Origin: a virus
DNA length: 32,244 bases
Strand: one strand, 5' to 3'
IMG/VR virus record: IMGVR_UViG_3300040810_000454
Coordinates: 1 to 32,244 of that record
The first letter of the stretch is position 1. Every line of letters begins with the position of its first letter. The notes beneath the pieces were generated by a model. That model worked only from the letters and a program-made list of their open reading frames with translations. It was not told where the DNA came from and ran no database searches. This document shows, one piece after another, positions 11,045 through 20,520 of this stretch. The translations under genes were made by a program, and so were the position numbers.

Positions 11045-11369
11045 CTTTTTTAAATCTGATATTATCCAAGACGAACTAACTGAGATTAATAATCTTCAGG
11101 AGGAAATCTATGGTAGCATCCTAACCTTTGGTGGTATGGATAATGAGACCAAAAGGGAACATGTTGAGATGTTACAGACCTTGCTAGAAAAGCAAAGGAT
11201 CATGTATACTAGATTGTCCCTTTCAGACGACCCACAAGCGGTTGAGATGAAAGAGAACCTACGCAAATCAGTAGCACTGATGGGTTTCCCACCAGACACT
11301 GATATGTCAATTTTATTCGACAGTATGAAAGAAACAATTGAATCCCTCAAAGACTATCTTGACGACTGA
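11037..11369 (+). CDS. DUF1825-like protein, 110 aa
   Basis: Start ATG 11037, overlapping gp59 by 8 nt. The product MSDFFKSDIIQDELTEINNL, with LLEKQRIMYTRLSLSDDP and LMGFPPDTDMSILFDSM later on, matches the DUF1825 pattern (F.S..VQ.E...., RY.....RL.LS.D, ..G..P..M). DUF1825 is found almost only in cyanobacteria and their phages; function unknown. Mostly helical and acidic. The -35 element of the gp32 promoter lies in its last codons. Confidence 0.75.
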   Translation: MSDFFKSDIIQDELTEINNLQEEIYGSILTFGGMDNETKREHVEMLQTLLEKQRIMYTRLSLSDDPQAVEMKENLRKSVALMGFPPDTDMSILFDSMKETIESLKDYLDD

Positions 11370-11387
11370 GGGCATCCTTGCTATACT
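11359..11387 (+). promoter_or_regulatory. Sigma70-type promoter of gp32, TTGACG-N17-TATACT
   Basis: TTGACG (11359-11364) overlaps the last codons of the DUF1825 gene; TATACT is at 11382-11387 with a 17-nt spacer. The predicted start near 11394 gives a 39-nt leader for gp32. The leader contains repeated AATCC/CCGA strings (11398-11430) and a GAGG (11422-11425) before the ATG. Confidence 0.78.
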
Positions 11388-11432
11388 ATCCGAGTAAATC
11401 CCCCGAATCCAAACTAATCCGAGGTAATCCAA

Positions 11433-12362
11433 ATGTCTTTCGCAGACCTTAAAAAGCAATCCAAACTGGGCTCCCTGACCGCAAAACTGGTCAAGGAAGT
11501 CGAAAAGATGAATAACAATAGCGGTTCCAGCGGCGATGATCGCTTGTGGAAACTGGAATGTGATAAGAGCGGCAACGGTTATGCCGTTATCCGTTTCCTC
11601 CCTGCTCCCGAAGGAGAGGACCTTCCTTTCGTGAAACTCTACAGTCACGCCTTCCAAGGTCCTGGTGGTTGGTATATTGAGAACTCCCTGACCACTCTTG
11701 GTCAGAAGGATCCTGTGTCTGAGTACAACACGATGCTGTGGAACAACGGCACCGATGCTGGTAAGGAAGCAGCACGCAAGCAGAAGCGCAAACTGACCTA
11801 CATCGCTAACATCTATGTGGTCAAGGACCCTGCTAACCCTGCTAACGAGGGTAAGGTGTTCCTGTTCAAGTTCGGTAAGAAGATCTTCGACAAACTCACT
11901 GCTGCCATGCAACCTGAGTTTGAAGATGAGGAAGCAATTGATCCCTTTGACTTCTGGCAAGGTGCTAACTTCAAACTGAAAGCAAAGAACGTTGCTGGTT
12001 ACCGTAACTATGACTCTTCCGAGTTCGCACGTCCTGATGCTCTCCTGGACGATGATGATGCTATGGAAGCAGTCTGGAAGAAGGAATATTCTCTCGCTGA
12101 ACTTGTTGCTGCTGACCAGTTCAAGGACTATGATGCTCTGAAGAAGCGTCTTGATTATGTTCTGGGTGTTCGTGGTGTTCCTAAGATGCAGGACCCCGAA
12201 ACTGTTGAGATGGAAGAGTCCTGGGAGCGTGAGCGTCGTGGTGAGTCTGCACCCGAGGTTCCCCAGTCTATGAAGGATGAACTGAGCAGTCTCTCTTCGA
12301 GTTCTTCTTCTGAAGAAGAAGATGATGCTCTGTCCTACTTCGCACGTCTTGCTGAAGATTGA
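11433..12362 (+). CDS. 32: gp32 single-stranded DNA-binding protein
   Basis: 309 aa (T4: 301). N-terminal basic LKKQSKLGSL for cooperative binding, core FLPAPEGEDLPFVKLYSHAF and GGWYIENSL as in the T4 OB fold, and an acidic Ser/Asp/Glu-rich C-terminus (SSSSSEEEDDALSYF) that recruits partners. The cysteines of the T4 zinc-binding loop are replaced (TTLGQKDPVSEYN), so no zinc site is expected; I believe this is usual for cyanophage gp32. Codon use is strongly biased to CTG, GGT, AAC and CGT with no ATA or TTA codons that I see, in line with very high expression. It has its own promoter. Confidence 0.95.
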   Translation: MSFADLKKQSKLGSLTAKLVKEVEKMNNNSGSSGDDRLWKLECDKSGNGYAVIRFLPAPEGEDLPFVKLYSHAFQGPGGWYIENSLTTLGQKDPVSEYNTMLWNNGTDAGKEAARKQKRKLTYIANIYVVKDPANPANEGKVFLFKFGKKIFDKLTAAMQPEFEDEEAIDPFDFWQGANFKLKAKNVAGYRNYDSSEFARPDALLDDDDAMEAVWKKEYSLAELVAADQFKDYDALKKRLDYVLGVRGVPKMQDPETVEMEESWERERRGESAPEVPQSMKDELSSLSSSSSSEEEDDALSYFARLAED

Positions 12363-12946
12363 AGTCTGATTACACAATAGACCGTGTAACCAAGTCTGAT
12401 GCCGCAGATTTACTTCTGCGGTATCATTATCTTAAAGATATTTCGAAAGGTTTCAAATCTGGTTATAATTACGGTCTATACAAGAAAAATGACTTTTCAC
12501 CTCTAAATATTGGAGGTATTCAGGGAGTCTGCATCTTTACTGGACTCCCTGTTCCAGAAATTGCAAAAGGCGCATTTGGACTAGAACGTAATGAGCAACA
12601 AGGACTCTTCGAACTCTCAAGACTCTGCATCCACCCCGATACTCAGCAGAGAGAGTATAATATCACTTCTTGGTTCGTTTCAAAGGCGATTAAGAGACTT
12701 AGAAAAGACACAGAAGTTAAAGCAATCATCTCATACGCTGATAGTGACCGCCATAGTGGTACAATCTATCGCGCTTGTAACTTTATGTATTGTGGATTAT
12801 CAGATGCAAAAAAAGATTTCTACTATGCAGACGGAACTAAGCACTCTCGTGGCAAAGTAAAAGGTGCTGAGGGAGAATGGAAAGACCGCTCCCGCAAACA
12901 CAGGTATGTGATGGTCTTTGATAAGAATCTTGACCTATTGTGGTGA
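12359..12946 (+). CDS. Mom-like DNA modification protein (GNAT fold)
   Basis: 195 aa. Starts at TTG 12359, overlapping the gp32 stop (GATTGA); no in-frame ATG lies nearby, so translation is probably coupled to gp32. Signature blocks: LLLRYHYLKDIS, GGIQGVCIFTGLPV, FELSRLCIHP, NITSWFVSKAIK and then AIISYADSDRHSGTIYRACN followed by YCG. These match Mu Mom-type proteins (adenine methylcarbamoylation), which adopt a GNAT-like fold and protect phage DNA from restriction. It could instead be another GNAT transferase. It ends convergently with gp53, overlapping it by 12 bp. Confidence 0.6.
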   Translation: MKSDYTIDRVTKSDAADLLLRYHYLKDISKGFKSGYNYGLYKKNDFSPLNIGGIQGVCIFTGLPVPEIAKGAFGLERNEQQGLFELSRLCIHPDTQQREYNITSWFVSKAIKRLRKDTEVKAIISYADSDRHSGTIYRACNFMYCGLSDAKKDFYYADGTKHSRGKVKGAEGEWKDRSRKHRYVMVFDKNLDLLW

Positions 12947-15591: not shown

Positions 15592-16374
15592 GTGCCAGCA
15601 CCTAGACCAAGAAAGATATCAGATTTCAAACCAACTCTAACTAGACTCGCACAAACTTCTCATTATGAGTTGTCTTTTGGTGGGTTACCTACACCACTAA
15701 GACAACATTTAAATGTGAGAGGAGTTGGATATCGTTTTATTACTGAAACTTCAGGACTTCTTTGCAGTGCTGCTGTGATACCTGGAAGTTCTCTTGCAAC
15801 GGCAGATATCGTTGGAAACTTTATGGGTGTCTCTGAAAAGATGGCACATACAAGAGCATTTACAGAAATTCAATTAGAATTTTATGTTGACTATCAATAT
15901 AAAACTATAAAATTCTTTGAGCACTGGATGGAGTTTATTTCTAGTGGATCTGGTGAATCGCAAGCACAAGATGGATATTACTTCAGAATGGTATATCCAG
16001 ATGACTATAAGTGTAATCAGACTAAATTAATCAAGTTTGACAGGGATTATGATAATGCTATAGAATATACTTTCTATGGAATGTTCCCAGTTTCTATGAA
16101 TTCTATTCCTGTCAATTATGGAAACTCTGAGATATTGAAAGCCACAGTGACATTTAATGTTGATAGATATGTTGCTGGAAGGTATGATAGTTATTCCTTG
16201 TATAGAGGAAACTATGGTAACATAGAATCAAATGAGAATTCTGGAAGTGTTAATAATGACTTTGCAAACTACGAAGCAAGTAGAGCATTTATCAATCCAA
16301 CATATTCGGATTCTACCAATCAAATACTCACGGATGCTGGTAGAAACTTAATTGAGAACCCTCTGGGACAATAA
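15592..16374 (+). CDS. 54: gp54-like baseplate tail tube initiator
   Basis: 260 aa from GTG 15592 (AAGG at 15580-15583 serves as Shine-Dalgarno; no early ATG in frame). The N-terminus is basic and Pro-rich (MPAPRPRK). The body LLCSAAVIPGSSLATADI, FTEIQLEFYVDYQYKTIKFF, YFRMVYPDDYKCNQ and AIEYTFYGMFPVSMNSIPV has the tail-tube fold seen in gp19/gp48/gp54. gp54 in T4 is 320 aa and starts tube assembly above gp48, whose gene is close by. It could instead be another tube-like protein, since sequence similarity within this group is loose. Confidence 0.65.
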   Translation: MPAPRPRKISDFKPTLTRLAQTSHYELSFGGLPTPLRQHLNVRGVGYRFITETSGLLCSAAVIPGSSLATADIVGNFMGVSEKMAHTRAFTEIQLEFYVDYQYKTIKFFEHWMEFISSGSGESQAQDGYYFRMVYPDDYKCNQTKLIKFDRDYDNAIEYTFYGMFPVSMNSIPVNYGNSEILKATVTFNVDRYVAGRYDSYSLYRGNYGNIESNENSGSVNNDFANYEASRAFINPTYSDSTNQILTDAGRNLIENPLGQ

Positions 16375-16406: not shown

Positions 16407-17126
16407 ATGCCTTTACCAAAAATATCTACACCAACATATGAGTTGGAAATTCCTTCTAGTGGGAAGAAAATTAAGTATAGACCATTCCTAGTAAAGGAAG
16501 AAAAAATCCTCATCATAGCGATGGAAACTGAGGATAGTAAGCATATCGCTAATGCTGTAAAGGATGTAATTTCAAGTTGCATTCTAACCAGAGGTGTAAA
16601 GGTAGATCAACTATCTACTTTTGATATTGAGTATCTGTTCTTAAACATTCGTGGTAAATCTGTTGGAGAAGATGTTGAGGTTTTGATTACTTGTCCTGAT
16701 GATAATTTGACACAAGTACCAACCGTAATTAATCTTGACGATATTCACGTACAGATTTCTGAAGAACATAGTAAGGACATTTCACTTGGTAATGACATGA
16801 CTCTCAGGATGAAATATCCTTCTATGAGTGAATTCATCAAATCTAATTTTAGTTCTTCGGAAGAAATTGGTGTTGATGATACTTTTGATTTGATTTGTTC
16901 TTGTATCGAACAAGTATATAATGAAGAGGAGTCGTGGAGTGCTTCTGATTGTACTAAAAAAGAATTGAAAGAATTTTTGGAGCAACTAAGTTCCAAACAG
17001 TTCAAGGAAATTGAAAAATTCTTTGACACGATGCCAAAACTGTCTCATAAAATTAAAATCAAAAATCCAAATACTGGTGTTGAAAGTGAAGTTGTTCTTG
17101 AGGGTCTGACATCTTTTTTCGCGTAA
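16407..17126 (+). CDS. 26: gp26-like baseplate hub/tail assembly protein
   Basis: 239 aa (T4 gp26: 208). N-terminus PLPKISTPTYELEIPSSGKK and KYRPFLVKEEKILIIAME match the T4 baseplate protein family that includes gp26. Middle: DIEYLFLNIRGKSVGEDVEV. The C-terminal half is helical and acidic. In other phages the gene at this place, just ahead of the tape measure, encodes the tail assembly chaperone G. The gene ends in a TCT TTT TTC GCG TAA string that contains a canonical -1 slippery site, and the next small ORF lies in the -1 frame. Confidence 0.75.
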   Translation: MPLPKISTPTYELEIPSSGKKIKYRPFLVKEEKILIIAMETEDSKHIANAVKDVISSCILTRGVKVDQLSTFDIEYLFLNIRGKSVGEDVEVLITCPDDNLTQVPTVINLDDIHVQISEEHSKDISLGNDMTLRMKYPSMSEFIKSNFSSSEEIGVDDTFDLICSCIEQVYNEEESWSASDCTKKELKEFLEQLSSKQFKEIEKFFDTMPKLSHKIKIKNPNTGVESEVVLEGLTSFFA

Positions 17127-17140
17127 GTATGGCTCATACT
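17114..17140 (+). promoter_or_regulatory. Candidate programmed -1 frameshift site
   Basis: Slippery heptamer T TTT TTC at 17114-17120, in the correct phase of the gp26-like frame. A 5-nt spacer follows and then AGTATG (17126-17131) pairs with CATACT (17135-17140) over a GCT loop. The -1 frame has no stop between the heptamer and the ATG at 17129, so the product would be gp26 minus its last residues fused to the 57-aa ORF. Confidence 0.55.
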
Positions 17141-17302
17141 AATCTAGAGTCATACTTTAAGGTTAATTTTGCCCTTATGCAACATCATAAATATTCTTTG
17201 ACAGAACTAGAAAATATGATACCTTGGGAAAAGGAAGTATATCTTTCTCTTCTCCAACAATATATTGAGGAAGAAACACTAAAACAAAGAGCAAATGGCT
17301 GA
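17129..17302 (+). CDS. Small tail assembly chaperone-like ORF (T-type), 57 aa
   Basis: Reads MAHTNLESYFKVNFALMQHH then KYSLTELENMIPWEKEVYLS and LLQQYIEEE. The FALMQHHKYSL.ELE.MIPWE...YL.LL segment is typical of the short second part of tail assembly chaperones (the T part of G/GT), in which a P-W-E motif follows a short helix. It can start at its own ATG (17129, in the hairpin stem) or be reached by -1 frameshifting from the gp26-like gene. It ends overlapping the start of the first tape-measure-like gene (ATGGCTGA). Confidence 0.7.
   Translation: MAHTNLESYFKVNFALMQHHKYSLTELENMIPWEKEVYLSLLQQYIEEETLKQRANG
17187..17193 (+). promoter_or_regulatory. Possible internal late promoter box ATAAATA
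   Basis: Lies inside the 57-aa ORF about 100 nt before the first tape-measure-like gene at 17295. It may be chance in AT-rich DNA. Confidence 0.25.
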
Positions 17303-18671
17303 GATGCAATCACCCTTAGCGGGTGGACTAAGTGGGGCTAGAAGAACAGTATCAGCGTCTTCCGCATTAGGTCGCCCATACTTGAGCAGCTCACTTGCTA
17401 ATCAGATTGCACAAGCATCAGATAGAGAAACTGCTTCGGTTTTAGAGCAGAATCAAGTTGCTTTGCAGAACGTCACTAATTCAATATCACGAATTAGTGG
17501 TCAGATGATTCTGATTAATAATAATTTATTGACAATCTCGAATTTGCTTTCACAAAATTCTCAACTCGAGAATCTTAAATCTCAACAAGAAATAAACCAA
17601 GAAAGAATATTAGCAGAACAAAAACTTCGAGAAGGAAAAGAAAGTTTAATTGAGAGAAAAATGCAGTCTGTGCTGGCTGCTCCTGTGCAGAAGATTGGAG
17701 CAAAAGCACAATTCTCATTGATGAACTTAATGAGTTTCTTCAATCAATTATTCTTTGGGTGGTTATTAAATCAGGGTGTAGAGACTATTTCTGCACTTGC
17801 CACAGGTAATAGTGAAAAATTAAATGCGATTAAAGATAATCTTCTTAAGAACCTCAGAGATGTTGGTTTAACATTACTCGCTCTACAAACTGGATTTGGT
17901 TTTTTTAGAGGTGGTCTTTTAAGAATTGGTACAAGAATCGCTCAGGCGGTAGCACTTAAGTTGTTTAGTAGACCCATTACAGCGTTATTTGATGCTGTTA
18001 AAGGAATTGCAAAAGCAGTACTACCAGAACCAGTTCTTGGGTGGTTGAGAATAGCGTATCAGTACGCTACTGGACAAATACTAGGACCAGAAGAGAGTTC
18101 GACTGGTGCGGGTGAAGTTTCTTCTCCATCCACCGTTATTGGTGGTATGGCTAATAATATGATGCCTGGTCAGAAAGAAGAAAGCGCAGGTGAATTTTTA
18201 GCATCAGCTGGAGGTGCTCTAGTAGCATTTGAAGCAGGTTATAAGTATACACCTGGTCCTGCTTGGTTGAAAACAATAAGTGGATTGACTTTCTCAGTTG
18301 TTGGTTCTAATGTTGCTAAGGGAGTTCTGAATAGTCTCACTGGTTCATCAGATCAGGCAGCACAAACTACTTCTGATGCTTCAGCAAATGCTGAGTTAAA
18401 ACCAGCAGAATCAAGGACTGATGCCACAACGGAAATAAAGGCAACAATTTCAGCACCAGAACTGAAAGATAAATCACAGACTGTTCCAGAGTTACCGAAA
18501 CCAAAATCAAATGTAACTGTAATAGATGCTCCACAAGAGCAAGCATCATCAGGAACTCAGCAAAAGTTAGGTCTAGCAAATAGAACACCTAATGTTGCTA
18601 GTTCCAATGTAGACAATCCATTCCCATTATTTGGTGCTGTGACTTATAACGTACCCGCAGCGATAGGATAA
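17295..18671 (+). CDS. Tape-measure-like tail protein A, 458 aa
   Basis: N-terminal 130 residues are rich in Gln, Ser and Asn with a long coiled coil (ISRISGQMILINNNLLTISN through EINQERILAEQKLREGKESL). Next comes a hydrophobic helical region including FNQLFFGWLLNQGVETISAL, LTLLALQTGFGFFRGGLL and a PLSN-like Ala/Gly-rich stretch near residue 310, followed by a Ser/Pro/Thr-rich tail. Coiled coil plus membrane-active helices just behind the chaperone-like genes fits a tape measure or hub protein (T4 gp29 position). I cannot show direct similarity to gp29. It shares the GWLL helix with the following protein. Confidence 0.55.
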   Translation: MAEMQSPLAGGLSGARRTVSASSALGRPYLSSSLANQIAQASDRETASVLEQNQVALQNVTNSISRISGQMILINNNLLTISNLLSQNSQLENLKSQQEINQERILAEQKLREGKESLIERKMQSVLAAPVQKIGAKAQFSLMNLMSFFNQLFFGWLLNQGVETISALATGNSEKLNAIKDNLLKNLRDVGLTLLALQTGFGFFRGGLLRIGTRIAQAVALKLFSRPITALFDAVKGIAKAVLPEPVLGWLRIAYQYATGQILGPEESSTGAGEVSSPSTVIGGMANNMMPGQKEESAGEFLASAGGALVAFEAGYKYTPGPAWLKTISGLTFSVVGSNVAKGVLNSLTGSSDQAAQTTSDASANAELKPAESRTDATTEIKATISAPELKDKSQTVPELPKPKSNVTVIDAPQEQASSGTQQKLGLANRTPNVASSNVDNPFPLFGAVTYNVPAAIG

Positions 18672-18672
18672 T

Positions 18673-20520
18673 ATGGCAAGTACAACTCTAGCATACAGGT
18701 CATCTCTAAAAATATCTTCTTTATCGAGAACTATTGACTCGGTAAACAAAACATTTGGTAGTGTTGAAGAAACTACCAATACAATAGCAAAAACTTTAAC
18801 GGAAAGAAATCAACAAAAACAAAAACTCATATCAGATAAAACAAAATTTTTCTTAGCGAGAAGAGAAGCAGTTAGAAAGAGAGAACAAGAAAGTATCATA
18901 GAAGCATCTAGTATTGGTGGTACTATAAAACGCACCAATAAAGTTGTAATGGATAGTACCAAAGGATTCTTAGGTAGAATACTTGATTTTGCTGGTACAT
19001 TATTAGTTGGTTGGTTGTTATTAAATCTACCTAGAATTATTGATGGTACAAAAAAACTTATAGAAAGAATTCAAAAGTTAGTTACTACTTTATCTAATGC
19101 AGTTGGTAATGTAACAGACTTTTTGTTCACAATAGGAGACACATTGAGTGGTGTTTTAAGAGACGTTACATCTTTCAATTTTGGTAATATTAGAAATACA
19201 GTTGAAGATGGAATGAGTAAGATGAATCAGTCCATCAGAAAATTGGAAAATGATATTATATTTGCTATCAATCTTCTGCTAAGACCTCTTGATTTTGGAT
19301 TTGGTTTAGACGATAAGGTACCAGGTACAAAATCAGGTGTTGGTAGTGACTTTGGAGGATATACTGAACCCAGTGGTGGGATATCTAATGGTAGAGTTAA
19401 TCCTCAAGCAGTTTATCAATATTTGAGATCTCTTGGTGTATCCCACATTCATTCGATGGGTATTCTTGCAAATATTCAAGGTGAAAGTGGTTTTAGAGTA
19501 GCAGCAGATGAGGCTGGTGATGGTTCTAGAGGTATTGGTTTATTCCAATACACATATCCAACTAGAAAGAAAGCATTTTTAGAAGCAGTTCCAGACTATA
19601 AAACAAATTGGAAAGGTCAAGTAAGATTTGCTGTTGGTGAAAGTACAGCACCACAATATCTTGCATCATCATTTGGTAGTCCTGAAGCAGCAGCGGCTTG
19701 GTGGATGAGAAATTGGGAAAGACCCGATACTGCATTATATGGATCAAGAGATGATAAGCATAATAAGTTCATAGAATCATTTAAAGTACCACAACCTACC
19801 ACAGCAAAAGGTCCAATAAAACTTGGTCCAAAATTATCTAAGTATCAAGATGTTAGTGGAATGATTGCTAATGGTAGTGTTAGTGCTTCAGTAACAAGTC
19901 TTTATGGAATGCGTGGTGGTAAGATGCATAGGGGTATTGATATTGCTGCTCCTATGGGAACTCATATTGCACTTCGTGTTGATTGTGAGGTTATGGGTAC
20001 AGCAAATGACAGAAGTGGATATGGTTTAGTTATTGATGTCTGGGTTCCTCAGTATGGAGTACAACTTCGTTTTGGACACTGTAGTAAGTTCTTGATTACT
20101 TCTGGAAAAATTCCAGCAGGAAAATCATTTGCTACTGTCGGGTCTACTGGAAGATCTGATGGTCCACACATTCACTTTGAATACACCAGAGAAAAGGATA
20201 GTAGAAAAGGTGGTAGTGATGGTGATCCATCTCCTTATGTACCTCTCATCCTTCTTACCACTGGACCAAGTTCTTCTGGTTCATTTACAACATCATCCAA
20301 ACCAAGTGCTGCTCAGATATCTGTAACAAAGAATAATGAGGTTGCACAGAAGATAACCACAGAGAGAAAGGGTGATGAAGTTGTTGTTGTGAGAAGACAA
20401 CCTAGTGAACCAGTTTCACCAGCATCTGTTATATCATCTGGTTCTCAAATGATTACTGGTGGAAAGGGGTTAAATACATTTATCAAAGAAGTTCTATTCT
20501 TAAATCTAGCAAGTACTTAA
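18673..20520 (+). CDS. Tape-measure-like tail protein B with lysozyme and M23 peptidase domains
   Basis: 615 aa, starting 1 nt behind protein A. Residues 1-90: coiled coil. Residues about 97-135: hydrophobic helix GTLLVGWLLLNLPRIIDG, similar to the GWLL helix of protein A. Residues about 238-370: tail lysozyme domain (AVYQYLRSLGVSHIHSMGIL, then NIQGESGF with the catalytic-type Glu, GSRGIGLFQY, AAAAWWMRNWE). Residues about 405-535: M23 endopeptidase with MHRGIDIAAPMG (H...D), GYGLVIDV and GPHIHFE (HxH). Both walls of the murein, glycan and peptide, would be attacked during DNA injection. In T4 the tail lysozyme is part of gp5; here it has moved to this protein. Confidence 0.85.
   Translation: MASTTLAYRSSLKISSLSRTIDSVNKTFGSVEETTNTIAKTLTERNQQKQKLISDKTKFFLARREAVRKREQESIIEASSIGGTIKRTNKVVMDSTKGFLGRILDFAGTLLVGWLLLNLPRIIDGTKKLIERIQKLVTTLSNAVGNVTDFLFTIGDTLSGVLRDVTSFNFGNIRNTVEDGMSKMNQSIRKLENDIIFAINLLLRPLDFGFGLDDKVPGTKSGVGSDFGGYTEPSGGISNGRVNPQAVYQYLRSLGVSHIHSMGILANIQGESGFRVAADEAGDGSRGIGLFQYTYPTRKKAFLEAVPDYKTNWKGQVRFAVGESTAPQYLASSFGSPEAAAAWWMRNWERPDTALYGSRDDKHNKFIESFKVPQPTTAKGPIKLGPKLSKYQDVSGMIANGSVSASVTSLYGMRGGKMHRGIDIAAPMGTHIALRVDCEVMGTANDRSGYGLVIDVWVPQYGVQLRFGHCSKFLITSGKIPAGKSFATVGSTGRSDGPHIHFEYTREKDSRKGGSDGDPSPYVPLILLTTGPSSSGSFTTSSKPSAAQISVTKNNEVAQKITTERKGDEVVVVRRQPSEPVSPASVISSGSQMITGGKGLNTFIKEVLFLNLAST

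Follow-up and report, generated by a model that had tools for sequence, protein, structure and literature searches.

The IMG/VR virus record IMGVR_UViG_3300040810_000454, whose 32,244 bases constitute the window analyzed here and which is a fragment rather than a complete genome, appears to belong to a marine T4-like (cyanophage-related) myovirus whose tail-assembly-chaperone gene is translated with a programmed -1 ribosomal frameshift, a reading to which we assign a probability of about 93%. The signal lies at the 3' end of a gp26-like gene, and the -1 frame encodes the domain known as gp51. The features of the locus are the following:

15592..16374, plus strand: upstream neighbour, tail tube / tube-initiator-like gene (phrog_45, E=4.5e-40)
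16407..17126, plus strand: gp26-like gene, putative short tail-assembly chaperone (TAC-N), 239 aa (PF12322, phrog_150)
17114..17120, plus strand: slippery heptamer T_TTT_TTC, in phase
17120..17299, plus strand: -1 frame extension of 60 codons, the gp51 domain (TAC-C), with its stop at 17300-17302 (phrog_634 and the C-terminal end of phrog_150)
17121..17125, plus strand: 5-nt spacer from the heptamer to the conserved stem
17124..17126, plus strand: frame-0 stop codon of gp26, TAA
17126..17156, plus strand: predicted stem-loop, arms 17126-17135 and 17147-17156, 10 bp with one G-U pair (11 bp in the window), z -3.23; likely a frameshift stimulator and a cover of the gp51 ATG
17129..17131, plus strand: start codon (ATG) of gp51 where it is annotated as an ORF of its own; located in the 5' stem arm and not conserved
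17295..18671, plus strand: downstream neighbour, 458 aa, no family match
18673..20520, plus strand: downstream neighbour, 615 aa, peptidase domain and partial tape-measure match (phrog_3572 and phrog_9570 among others)

The gp26-like ORF ends with TCT TTT TTC GCG TAA, in which the heptamer is in phase as X_XXY_YYZ and stands 3 nt upstream of the stop codon. The -1 frame is uninterrupted across the small ORF at 17129-17302, and the predicted fusion has 238 + 60 = 298 aa. A preliminary description of this DNA had proposed a canonical -1 signal at the end of the gp26-like gene, a 5-nt spacer and a -1 frame open through a 57-aa ORF, and all three were found in place, the ORF being gp51. The locus sits between tail-tube-like and tape-measure-like genes, as in the lambda G/GT type. 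This equivalence to lambda, which had also been suggested from the position ahead of the tape-measure genes, agrees with the phrog_45 match upstream and the partial tape-measure match downstream.

Elsewhere in the window, positions 12359-12946 encode a 195-aa protein that matches phrog_1384 'Mom-like DNA modification protein' (E=1.2e-34) and has a 4-base overlap with the preceding ORF. On the minus strand, a 354-aa ORF with a TTG start (11313-12377) lies antisense to a 309-aa ORF (11433-12362); it is probably no gene but a mechanical by-product of codon usage.

The sequence TTTTTTC is of ordinary abundance in the window (14 found versus 14.0 expected), and thus, conservation was used to test whether its presence at the junction is more than chance. 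T_TTT_TTC in phase and an open -1 frame are present in 80/80 of the closest IMG/VR loci. When these are taken together with more distant loci and named phages, in-phase TTTTTT(C/T/G) is found in 253/255 related loci (C in 233, T in 19, and G in 1) and the -1 frame is open in 255/255, for at least 35 codons or up to the contig end, although these and kindred counts are not independent, since the loci are related and some are near-identical. The phages that keep the heptamer have hosts as diverse as Synechococcus (cyanophage), Pelagibacter, Sinorhizobium, Agrobacterium, Stenotrophomonas, Aeromonas, and Vibrio. The codon preceding the heptamer varies (AGT, TCT, GAT, GCT, AAT, GGT), yet its final T is invariant. 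The comparison across relatives that the preliminary description had called for was therefore favorable to it for both the heptamer and the frame and, as far as alignments can tell, the frameshift signal is genuine, with very strong conservation.

It could be argued that a common heptamer happens to lie where two independently expressed genes overlap in the -1 frame by accident, and the expected frequency of TTTTTTC across the window is compatible with this idea. However, the heptamer is kept in phase in phages whose hosts are as far apart as Synechococcus, Vibrio, and rhizobia, which already contradicts this idea, and so does the codon usage. The junction codon pairs are TTT-TTC in 233 loci, TTT-TTT in 19, and TTT-TTG (Phe-Leu) in 1, whereas in the remainder of these genes Phe-Phe is encoded by TTC-TTT 152 times, TTT-TTT 99 times, and TTT-TTC and TTC-TTC 10 times each, so that the pair prevailing at the junction is among the rarest Phe-Phe pairs outside it. 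We consider the probability of such an accident negligible.

The T run could also lead to the fusion by transcriptional slippage, which would generate mRNAs with an altered frame. Runs that cause polymerase slippage usually have 8-9 residues or more, but the run at this junction is exactly 6 in 234/253 loci and never longer than 8, which is short for that process. In addition, slippage of tandem tRNAs needs a run whose phase is fixed with respect to frame 0, as it is here. Slippage of the polymerase thus seems exceedingly improbable.

The reading of the -1 frame was analyzed in 219 distinct junctions, where ATG, GTG, and TTG starts were searched from 3 codons before to 14 codons after the slip. 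No start codon was found near the slip in 73/219 of them. The -1 sequence is conserved from the slip onward, following the pattern FFR[IVL]...H..L..[YF]..NF, and directly behind FF the -1 frame has Arg in 191/219 junctions, while frame 0 has Ala, Gly, Val, Glu, or a stop there, without conservation. The start-less junctions keep the -1 protein sequence upstream of any possible start. Judging from this pattern of conservation, coding in the -1 frame starts at the slip site, independently of a start codon of its own. The GenBank records of P-HM2 and ACG-2014a start gp51 well inside, and the S-MbCM100 record omits it.

These junctions also bear on the possibility that ribosomes terminate gp26 at 17124 and then initiate anew at the ATG at 17129, yielding a separate 57-aa gp51. 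An ATG is found close behind the frame-0 stop in the window and in 113/219 relatives, which have Met at the position of the window ATG. In the window this ATG lies 2 nt past the stop, and thus, some independent gp51 could arise there. Nevertheless, termination-reinitiation is very unlikely to explain the locus, because 73 of the 219 junctions have no start codon while their -1 protein is conserved upstream of the would-be start, 101 have Leu at the ATG position, and the ATG is located within the predicted stem. Moreover, reinitiation leaves the fixed heptamer, the fixed phase, and the T4 gp51 fusion described below unexplained. The preliminary description had argued that occlusion of the ATG of the small ORF favors expression by frameshifting; its place in the predicted 5' arm of the stem and the relatives that have no start codon make that argument stronger.

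The two loci out of 255 without an in-phase T6 heptamer belong to Vibrio phages K444 and BX-1. The junction reads ACG CTT TTT GCG TAATG in K444 (L085:2190-2230) and CAC GTT TTT CGC TAATG in BX-1 (L088:2211-2250); in both, the -1 frame is open and the ATG overlaps the stop. These phages may slip on the shorter T run or reinitiate. In three distant contigs (L255-L257), the heptamer is TTTTTTT, in phase and with CGATAA or CGGTAA behind it, and their -1 frame encodes the gp51 domain.

Concerning the RNA, the window is predicted to fold into an 11-bp stem (17126-17135/17147-17156 plus A17125-U17157; z = -3.2) that begins 5 nt past the heptamer and of which 10 bp are conserved. Among 62 close relatives, the 10 stem pairs are formed in 94.8% of the cells, compared with 24-49% if the pairing is slid by 1-3 columns, and at 17134/17148 a compensatory change has replaced UA by GC in 15 sequences. 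Covariation scored 0.164 versus 0.105 when shuffled (0/500 shuffles as high), with just 2 pairs changed on both sides. The support leans mainly on the single pair 17134/17148, and the relatedness of the sequences inflates such scores. The median z of the site is -3.6 in the clade of the window, -2.4 in an intermediate group, -0.5 in the S-RIM2-like group, and -0.8 in the Pelagibacter-like group; no stem is evident in these last two groups, where the degree of structure at the site is ordinary. No universal stimulatory structure was found by alifold across all clades, and an Rfam search gave only a chance-level match. From these comparisons, the heptamer is general and the stem clade-specific, and the conserved stem is likely a stimulator of frameshifting.

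The 6-bp hairpin that the preliminary description had placed after the spacer can indeed be formed (17126-17131/17135-17140), but it is not the minimum-energy fold and is not conserved, its 3' arm falling in the loop, which varies among relatives; the structure that is kept is the longer, different stem. The hairpin was rejected as a stimulator.

The gp26-like protein matches PF12322 (T4_baseplate) with E=5.6e-76 and 255.5 bits, the curated cut-off being 24.5 bits, and also matches phrog_150 'baseplate hub'. For the small ORF, the matches are to phrog_634 'baseplate hub assembly catalyst' (gp51), with E=6.8e-28, and to the C-terminal end of phrog_150 (231-278 of 282), whose N part matches gp26; the phrog_150 family thus already includes fused proteins. 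A fusion profile built from 218 gp26+gp51 products joined at the slip aligns end to end with T4 gp51 (12-285/298 against 5-247/249, 98.9% probability), whereas T4 gp26 matches the N part alone. The profile of the C part matches gp51 of T4 and Aes508 and not gp26. Thus, the small ORF, which had been taken for a separate chaperone-like ORF, corresponds instead to the C-terminal part of T4 gp51.

In T4, genes 26 and 51, whose products have 208 and 249 aa, respectively, lie on opposite strands, and both proteins score in PF12322. Among complete genomes, T4 and Aes508 have two PF12322 genes and each of 20 others has one; no separate full-length gp51 was found elsewhere in the genome in 20 complete relatives. 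The 32-kb fragment of the window contains one PF12322 match. T4 therefore has two genes for what these phages would make from one by frameshifting.

The AlphaFold model of gp26 has a pLDDT of 86.7. Its highest-probability match in the PDB is the HK97 chaperone 2ob9 (0.51), but with E=2.0 this match is not significant and is taken as a hint only; among predicted viral proteins, the model matches T4-type hub chaperones. The gp51 part modeled alone is helical, with low confidence, and a sequence search of solved structures found no relative.

The lambda G/GT system yields a short form, which coats the tape measure, and a rare long form, which binds tail-tube subunits as well (review PMC5009743). 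The locus described here differs from it in the heptamer, which is T_TTT_TTC, in an N part that belongs to PF12322, and in the clade-specific stem downstream. In the reading favored here, most ribosomes would terminate at 17124 and yield gp26 (TAC-N), and we infer that a minority would slip at T_TTT_TTC into the -1 frame, giving the 298-aa gp26-gp51 fusion (TAC-NC). In the clade of the window, slippage would be aided by the stem 5 nt downstream. By analogy with gpG/gpGT, the tape-measure protein would be coated by the N part, while tail-tube subunits would be brought in by the gp51 part.

The tail chaperone genes of T4-like phages were identified by Vladimirov, Gautam & Davidson (Vladimirov et al., 2022; Virology 566:9-15), according to the passages of PMC10885494 and PMC12846349 that cite this work. 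The former states, citing it, that some T4-like phages have separate short and long chaperone genes in place of frameshifting. The latter (2025), with the same citation, uses the word 'known' of -1 frameshift signals of the poly-T type in the TAC-N genes of T4-like phages, and so the statement in the preliminary description that none had been described at the T4-like gp26 locus does not hold. In the light of these passages, the signal type is already reported for T4-like tail chaperone genes, and the one described here is a further instance. T4 gp26 and gp51 belong to the same protein families as the products of this locus, and the gp26+gp51 fusion aligns over the whole of T4 gp51; the difference is that T4 has a short gene 26 (N) and a fused long gene 51 (N+C), instead of one gene with a frameshift. 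Poly-T -1 frameshift sites are also found in the chaperone genes of Vandenendeviridae and Andersonviridae (PMC12846349), which share with this locus an invariant motif near the TAC-N end, a -1 frame that is always open, and a downstream ORF that is annotated separately. However, these are other phage families, and their motif is GTTTTT, whereas here it is TTTTTTC.

A 26-genome survey from 2010 (PMC3037559) reported that cyanophage gp51 has only ~20% of the length of T4 gp51, without ~200 N-terminal residues, and that Aeh1 is without gp51. The short cyanophage gp51 would be explained by its being the -1 half of a fusion. In Aeromonas phage Aeh1 (L254), the locus reads GA TTTTTTC GACTGA and is followed by a -1 ORF without an ATG before the conserved part, so that the apparent absence of gp51 would result from an ORF that is present but has no start codon. 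This unannotated ORF, homologous to gp51, is located at NC_005260 118834-119001 and follows the TTTTTTC in gp26.

It is conceivable, although we consider it rather doubtful, that TTTTTTC frameshifting is the ancestral and still the commonest two-chaperone route in the T4 superfamily, including the Straboviridae members Aeh1, PX29, and nt-1, that it was replaced by gene duplication and fusion only in the T4/Aes508-type lineage, and that its distribution, the start-less gp51, and the covarying stem are unpublished. For annotation, the finding means that gp51 is probably listed wrongly in hundreds of marine phage genomes. For the biology of these phages, it would mean that the problem of supplying both a short and a long chaperone has been solved in two ways within one phage group, i.e., by frameshifting, or by duplication and fusion.
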